47,984 nucleotides of DNA. It comes from Gammaproteobacteria bacterium (GTDB lineage Bacteria > Pseudomonadota > Gammaproteobacteria > Steroidobacterales > GCA-2729495). The stretch covers positions 15,231 to 63,214 of the forward strand of contig JACFNV010000003.1 of assembly GCA_019454675.1 (NCBI GenBank), in the 5' to 3' direction. The notes beneath the pieces are model-generated. The model was given only the letters and a program-made list of their open reading frames with translations, was not told the DNA's origin and made no database searches. Shown here in pieces: positions 38,040-38,447 of the stretch (position 1 is its first letter; every line of letters starts with the position of its first letter). Position numbers and translations under genes: made by a program.

Positions 38040-38175
38040 GCCGCGGGAACCGGCAGGCCCGGAGCGGGCTTTGAGGGCGAGCGACGCAGGGACAGCGAAA
38101 GCGAGCCCGATTGCAGCGGAGCCGGCCATGGATGGCCGGCGCAGCGCCAGCGAAGGGCCTGCCGGTTCCCGCGGC
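38040..38175. repeat. Intergenic element with 21-base perfect inverted repeats
   Basis: Arms at 38040-38060 (beginning GCCGCGGGAACCGG) and 38155-38175 are exact reverse complements, 94 bases apart. The interior has its own hairpin GCCGGCCATGGATGGCCGGC (38121-38140). With the terminator at 38219-38250 it fills the 333-base gap 37969-38301, where no protein gene is supported; long minus-strand frames through it look like non-coding GC-rich shadows. It resembles repetitive extragenic elements or a small non-autonomous mobile element. No target-site duplication was recognised. Confidence 0.75.
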
Positions 38176-38218: not shown

Positions 38219-38250
38219 AAAAAAAGAAGGGCCGCATTGCTGCGGCCCTT
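38219..38250 (-). terminator. Intrinsic terminator of the 26-codon gene
   Basis: A perfect ten-base stem (AAGGGCCGCA / TGCGGCCCTT, loop of four) is followed on the minus strand by seven T. It lies 52 bases after the stop of the small peptide gene and has no other gene to serve. Confidence 0.93.
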
Positions 38251-38301
38251 CCGTGAGATCGGGTGTCCCCAATCCCTGGATCGGTATCGCGATCCGCGTG
38301 C

Positions 38302-38382
38302 TCAGGCTGCCACCGAAGGCTGCTCCGCTGCCAGGCCAAGACACGAGGGCTGGAAGGACACCGTCGACATCTCACTAGACAT
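38302..38382 (-). CDS. Candidate 26-residue peptide gene with a full-length Shine-Dalgarno match
   Basis: The frame begins MSSEMSTVSFQP, contains one Cys (SCLGLAA, Cys14) and ends EQPSVAA. It starts with ATG at 38382, directly preceded by AAGGAGGTGATCC (38384-38396), which pairs with the whole 3' end of 16S rRNA. A promoter-like pair lies upstream and a strong terminator downstream, so the unit is complete in about 200 bases. The peptide matches no family I recognise. It could be a ribosomally made precursor peptide, a leader peptide or a small protein; being upstream-neighboured by a methyltransferase, an ATP-grasp ligase and a metallopeptidase on the same strand makes the first worth testing. 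Coding is supported by signals, not homology. Confidence 0.6.
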   Translation of the reverse strand: MSSEMSTVSFQPSCLGLAAEQPSVAA

Positions 38383-38417
38383 TGGATCACCTCCTTCAAT
38401 CTGTTGGACCGGGGCCG

Positions 38418-38447
38418 AGTATCGGCTTCCCTTGGCGCCGATTGCAA
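38418..38447 (-). promoter_or_regulatory. Promoter-like sequence for the 26-codon gene
   Basis: On the minus strand, -35 TTGCAA (38447-38442) and -10 GATACT (38423-38418) are 18 bases apart, each with four of six consensus bases. Transcription would start about 25-30 bases before the Shine-Dalgarno. Confidence 0.5.

Follow-up and report, generated by a model that had tools for sequence, protein, structure and literature searches.

A conserved RNA gene distantly related to Caulobacter CC2171, with a predicted fold that hides its own ribosome-binding site

The closest described relative of the gene reported here appears to be CC2171 of Caulobacter, which Rfam lists as an sRNA gene (RF01867); one survey has reported it in Mesorhizobium (PMC5596092), and in Rfam 15 one covarying pair was added to it (PMC11701678). 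No functional study of CC2171 was found in our literature searches, whose sources did not include the original Caulobacter report, nor did we find for it any description of a Shine-Dalgarno (SD), start codon and ORF feature or of gammaproteobacterial relatives. The dual-function sRNAs SgrS/SgrT, Spot 42/SpfP and rnTrpL/peTrpL resemble the present unit in being small RNAs with a short frame, which is translated in those systems, and the unit differs from them in that its peptide is without detectable selection. In the fold-back-inhibited small mRNAs of hok-type toxins, the 5′ start region forms a duplex with the 3′ end once the RNA is complete. The likeness to these is one of mechanism only, the peptide of our unit being neither conserved nor hydrophobic; a type I toxin mRNA was rejected on the grounds that the peptide is not hydrophobic by sequence and that a consensus scan found no antisense promoter at the unit.

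The unit occupies positions 38219–38447 on the minus strand of the window, by which we mean the whole 47,984-nucleotide stretch of DNA that was analysed. The original prediction described a promoter-like pair, a ribosome site, 26 codons and a terminator ending in seven Ts, all of which are found in place on that strand. The −35-like hexamer TTGCAA (38442–38447) and the −10 hexamer GATACT (38418–38423) are separated by 18 nt; the pair does not pass a strict promoter scan, and a TTG…ATACT element is conserved upstream in relatives, in the form of a TTG-containing hexamer and an ATACT. The extended SD sequence AAGGAGGTGATCC (38384–38396) is indeed the complement of the whole 16S rRNA 3′ end, with a computed energy of −23.7 kcal/mol for the 13-base duplex; there is a single exact copy of this 13-mer in the window and one in the 2.38-Mb genome, a draft from which the 16S 3′ end is apparently missing. 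The 26-codon ORF (38302–38382, including the stop TGA) starts with ATG at 38382 and encodes MSSEMSTVSFQPSCLGLAAEQPSVAA, which has one cysteine as had been noted. The intrinsic terminator (38219–38252) consists of a hairpin of 12 pairs, eight of them GC (38252–38225), and a tract of seven Ts (38225–38219).

At the curated Rfam cut-offs there is no match in the window. In a permissive scan RF01867 matches the unit at 42.3 bits (E=8.4e-8), below its gathering score of 75 bits, and the alignment is full length (model positions 1–159 of 159), including the 5′ segment and the terminator. The model can also be aligned over its full length to units of the Bradyrhizobium, Sphingomonad, Rhodobacter and Rhizobium types (type names that we assigned from neighbours and sequence), all of them below the cut-off; among eight relatives tested the gathering score is reached by L163 and L171 only, both alphaproteobacterial, and among 14 named control genomes Caulobacter vibrioides alone passes it. 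The window unit and CC2171 share a 5′ part, CAACA..AAGGAGGUGAUCCA(A/G)UGUCU, a similar length, an intergenic position with a terminator of their own, and a start-region helix that closes beside that terminator. This helix, which joins the region near the start codon to the segment preceding the terminator, is present in the window unit by prediction and covariation, whereas its sequence is entirely different (GUGAGAU/AUCUCAC in the window, CAUUGUC/GACAAUG in CC2171). As judged from these alignments, the unit is a distant relative of CC2171 and, by Rfam's own rule, not a member, so that it was not entirely without precedent; that the gene specifies a conserved, structured RNA akin to CC2171 we regard as very likely. 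A second family, BjrC68 (RF02353), matches the terminator end of the unit and was set aside as a relative: since only the 3′ region is matched, and since the Bradyrhizobium-type member of the window's family is an RNA different from BjrC68 and is matched by RF01867 instead, the match probably reflects terminator similarity.

By DNA similarity the 229-base unit was found in all nine same-genus genomes and in 33 of the 99 genomes searched, the window's own included, which is far beyond chance. Outside the genus these relatives cover much of the family and extend into several further families of the order, and the layout of the window unit is common to nearly all of them. When a single genome of each species was scanned with a pattern, there were matches in at least 120 stretches, from Gammaproteobacteria (Woeseiaceae and others) and Alphaproteobacteria, with Hyphomonas, Hyphomicrobium, Rhizobium, Agrobacterium, Pelagibacterium and others among the alphaproteobacterial matches listed. 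The shorter pattern AAGGAGGTGATCN{1,4}TGTC occurs in 75 of 398 Pseudomonadota genomes, against one for the reversed control, a minority of the matches being ordinary genes with long ORFs. Pattern-found units share the SD and TGTC by construction; among the units of the window's family found by DNA similarity, the SD variants TAGGAGG and AAGGGGG occur. The gammaproteobacterial distribution looks patchy, since a search of a broad sample of the window's class with RF01867 under strict filters matched four genomes only. Sequence comparison thus places the unit in a wide alpha- and gammaproteobacterial family of small-RNA genes, of which Caulobacter CC2171 (RF01867) is the only described part. Searches for phage and plasmid relatives found no such copy of the unit, and there is therefore no sign of a mobile element; some viral contigs match the 5′ pattern, and these matches, being without the conserved 3′ part, look like chance and were discarded.

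The pairing of the RNA was examined in two alignments, A1 (20 sequences of the window's family, found by DNA similarity) and A2 (23 Woeseiaceae-like units). Segment b (GTGAGAT, codons 3–5; 38369–38375) is the partner of b′ (ATCTCAC; 38253–38259), which abuts the terminator, and segment c (GGTGTC, codons 7–9; 38357–38362) that of c′ (GACACC; 38262–38267). Over the whole structure both sides have changed at six pairs in A1 and six in A2, the clades being grouped by sequence type and neighbours rather than by a tree and the counts of changed pairs not being counts of independent compensatory events. Cells with changes on both sides number 16 in A1 and 19 in A2, compared with 5.7 and 6.4 in shuffles, and in neither alignment is the covariation score of the whole structure, taken over all helices, reached by any of 500 shuffles or any slid register; these shuffle controls ignore the relatedness of the sequences. 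Helix c:c′ alone has changes on both sides at 4/6 pairs (A1) and 5/6 pairs (A2); the pairing registers of segments b and c were picked visually in these sequences themselves, ahead of the count. The b:b′ pairing of the units themselves has an energy of −10.4 kcal/mol, as against −8.8 (standard deviation 0.25) when partners are exchanged, with 0/2000 permutations as strong, and across clades the two segments have been replaced together (GTGAGAT/ATCTCAC, GTGGGAT/ATTCCAC, CATTGTC/GACAATG and CATGGTTCAGC/GCTGACCATG); in the Bradyrhizobium type the units' own b:b′ is not clearly better than the swapped one. The minimum-energy fold of the window RNA (z-score −3.9) contains b:b′ beside the terminator, and sequestration of the start region is predicted from it. 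A further pairing, of segment a (CCAAC; 38403–38407) with its candidate partner a′ (ATTGG; 38269–38273), would if formed be a pseudoknot and is weakly suggested by A1, in which 78 % of cells are paired and one pair has a change on both sides. The Bradyrhizobium-type units (L192–L200) have only a 14-codon frame (VSxTKRCHLAGIAR) and differ from other clades in that a long stretch around GGCATCGGGGCGCTCTCAGCCCTGGACCAGCGAGC, ahead of the terminator, is highly conserved.

Within the ORF there is also an anti-SD-like motif, GGAGCAGCCTTC (38315–38326), made up of codons for EQPS; its position relative to the SD is kept while its frame varies, and 90–93 % of A1 cells are paired with the SD. The motif GGAGCARCC is found in 78 units, 63–71 bases downstream of the first base of the SD, where AGGU..UCC is its possible partner. 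Depending on the clade the SD complement falls in the ORF or just after it: some of the Woeseiaceae-like units have one beyond the stop (CCTCCTTT), and in the Rhodobacter types, too, it lies at another place (CACCTCC). Averaged across the units, the internal complement exceeds shuffled sequence by only some 1 standard deviation, and the window's own family shows little covariation for the SD pairing, the majority of its changes being one-sided or G–U. The pattern is clearest in the Rhizobium types: of the units with the SD AAGGAAGGTG, 11/12 have CTTCCT beyond the stop, compared with 2/251 of the others, and the duplex with the unit's own SD is stronger than a swapped one in 11/12. The Rhizobium-type relatives L280–L292 have lost the exact 16S match, with AAGGAAGGTGATCC in place of AAGGAGGTGATCC, and their internal complement has changed to match, so that the intramolecular lock has been kept without a perfect match to the 16S rRNA. 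Sequestration of the SD thus appears to be selected, the best evidence being the covariation of SD and complement in the Rhizobium types, with which the window's family is consistent.

The first letter of the start codon, which was left free in the search, is A in 227 and G in 36 of the 263 retained units (those set aside being long-ORF hits and one TTG hit from a Gemmatimonadales record without the other features). A length of exactly 26 codons is seen in 15 of the 20 units of the window's family, in 23/23 of A2 (followed by TGA in 14, TAA in six and TAG in three) and in 95 of the 263, lengths being clade-specific (14, 18 and 21–26 codons). Indels in the ORF are absent from A2 and three bases long in A1, and outside the ORF they are frequent. 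As in small-protein families, then, start, frame and stop are kept, length and stop within clades only. Ribosome entry probably matters, because the start codon is always ATG or GTG and the position of the stop is kept in the closest clades, and loading of ribosomes on the unit is suggested by the preservation of its SD, start, frame and stop.

The constancy of ORF length might be a sign that the peptide is important after all, and the kept start, frame and stop would fit a small mRNA that functions through its 26-residue peptide, with translation no more than tuned by the RNA fold as in the fold-back-inhibited small mRNAs. A Sinorhizobium candidate might be cited for this: according to the paper describing it (PMC10117765), S. 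meliloti SEP1 is a peptide of 23 aa and pI 4.18, conserved in Rhizobiaceae and seen by Western blot, with the highest translation efficiency among 54 unannotated sORFs. The Rhizobium-type units likewise encode short, often acidic peptides (23–24 aa, several of pI 4.1–4.8), and a very high translation efficiency is as expected from a long SD; SEP1 may thus be an ortholog of the Rhizobium-type peptide, to which we liken it by length, pI and conservation, not by sequence. Should it start with MSNE or MSSE downstream of AAAGGAAGGUGAUCC, translation of a family member would already have been shown. Against the peptide as product, no purifying selection on amino acids was detected in five clades (pN/pS 0.74–1.05, codons 6 to end), no value being significantly below those of column-shuffled alignments; the lowest, that of the Woeseiaceae (0.74 against 0.90 in shuffles, 28/200 shuffles as low), is a weak and non-significant coding-like trend. 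Peptide sequence and length vary between clades, and the single internal conserved motif, GGAGCARCC, occurs in all three frames (EQP in 66 units, the second frame in eight and the third in four). The idea of the peptide as the conserved product is not supported by these comparisons. Frameshifts or stops in orthologues with the RNA structure kept, named at the outset as the outcome that would speak against the gene as proposed, are found in part: the frame of GGAGCARCC shifts at a nearly constant distance from the SD and compensatory changes keep the pairing, while the start and frame are kept, and the stop in the nearest clades. We consider it unlikely, though deserving of serious weight, that the peptide is the functional product. 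The freedom of its sequence suggests that the act of translation, not what is translated, is important, and by these comparisons it is RNA folding and the ribosome landing site, rather than the peptide sequence, that evolution appears to have preserved.

The reading that we prefer, with a probability of roughly 0.55, is that of a small RNA with a gene of its own that sequesters itself, its fold and the ribosome being rivals for the start site it carries. Comparison shows that the coding sequence directly behind the start codon pairs with the segment next to the terminator and that the SD can pair with its internal complement; these pairings together would lock the start site. During transcription the nascent RNA would expose the SD and start codon first, and the 3′ end would then close the lock; the long duplex between the SD and 16S rRNA may allow the 30S subunit to compete with it, especially at this stage. 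The RNA would accordingly have two alternating states, one bound by the ribosome and translated, the other closed; the short peptide would be mainly a by-product, and the regulatory output would come from the RNA, probably in trans. Of the components of this model, the helices b:b′ and c:c′ and the co-varying SD lock of the Rhizobium types are those that the comparative data establish, as far as sequences can; competition with the ribosome is tentative, and we would put it at somewhat short of even odds. A bolder version, which we think unlikely, makes the RNA a ribosome-gated riboregulator, in which the pool of free 30S subunits would be read through the full-length SD:16S duplex against a double lock, occupancy switching the RNA between its states and the peptide being irrelevant. 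If true, such ribosome-gated reading would constitute a widespread class of riboregulator that senses translation capacity directly.

A small RNA acting in trans might instead use a CU-rich anti-SD segment to mask the ribosome sites of its targets, its own SD serving as an intramolecular lock. Complementarity to SD sequences is seen in such segments as ACCUUCCUU of Rhizobium, CCCACCUCCU of the Rhodobacter type and CCCUCCUUUU of Woeseiaceae, and a free-standing gene with a U-tailed terminator is what such an RNA would have, but in the window's family the segment is GGAGCAGCCUUC, inside the ORF, and the preserved start codon would be left unexplained; we judge this quite improbable.

The genomic context bears on whether the unit acts in cis. 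In the window it lies between genes for a methyltransferase and an alpha/beta hydrolase, the latter about 250 nt downstream on the same strand, and a similar arrangement in a few same-genus genomes might suggest a leader or attenuator of the hydrolase gene. However, a complete terminator follows the unit, neighbouring genes are common within clades only, with genes and orientations varying between genera and clades so that no downstream gene is conserved, and the alphaproteobacterial units have neighbours unrelated to those of the window, which together make a cis-acting leader highly improbable. The conservation of the unit amid clade-specific neighbours shows instead that it is an independent gene, real and self-contained, as originally proposed. 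That it is a chance open frame and strong ribosome site in an intergenic spacer, for which nothing more than the shortness of the ORF can be cited, is refuted by conservation in relatives, with covariation also against it, and can be given almost no credence.

In the Hyphomonadaceae and several Rhodobacterales the RNA gene adjoins an ArfB-like gene (RF-1 domain, PF00472; loci L037, L044, L144, L204, L205, L207 and L209 and other Hyphomonadaceae loci), and in some Rhodobacterales it lies between this gene and a Vut_1 (YhhQ-like) transporter gene. A link to ribosome rescue, which these neighbours suggested, was rejected, there being no such neighbour outside the Hyphomonadaceae and some Rhodobacterales. 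In the window a large imperfect inverted repeat (38040–38175; 30-nt arms, 87 % complementary and 76 nt apart, with a second hairpin nested at 38116–38145) sits between the terminator of the unit and the alpha/beta-hydrolase gene. It may be a dispersed hairpin repeat, since a partial copy, 85 % identical, is present elsewhere in the genome (G000:C85:11586-11699).

The relationships described here join scattered and mostly unnoticed RNAs, Caulobacter-, Rhizobium-, Mesorhizobium-, Rhodobacter-, Sphingomonad- and Bradyrhizobium-like together with some from the Gammaproteobacteria, into a single family. Its members have a common architecture, in which the 16S tail is complemented almost perfectly, the start codon is kept and the fold is predicted to hide both features. 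They carry a warning that a peptide need not be conserved even where a strong ribosome site precedes a short ORF of constant length. An RNA of this kind lends itself to the study of competition between ribosome binding and RNA folding, and with members in genetically tractable genera such as Caulobacter, Agrobacterium and Rhizobium the function of the family is directly testable.
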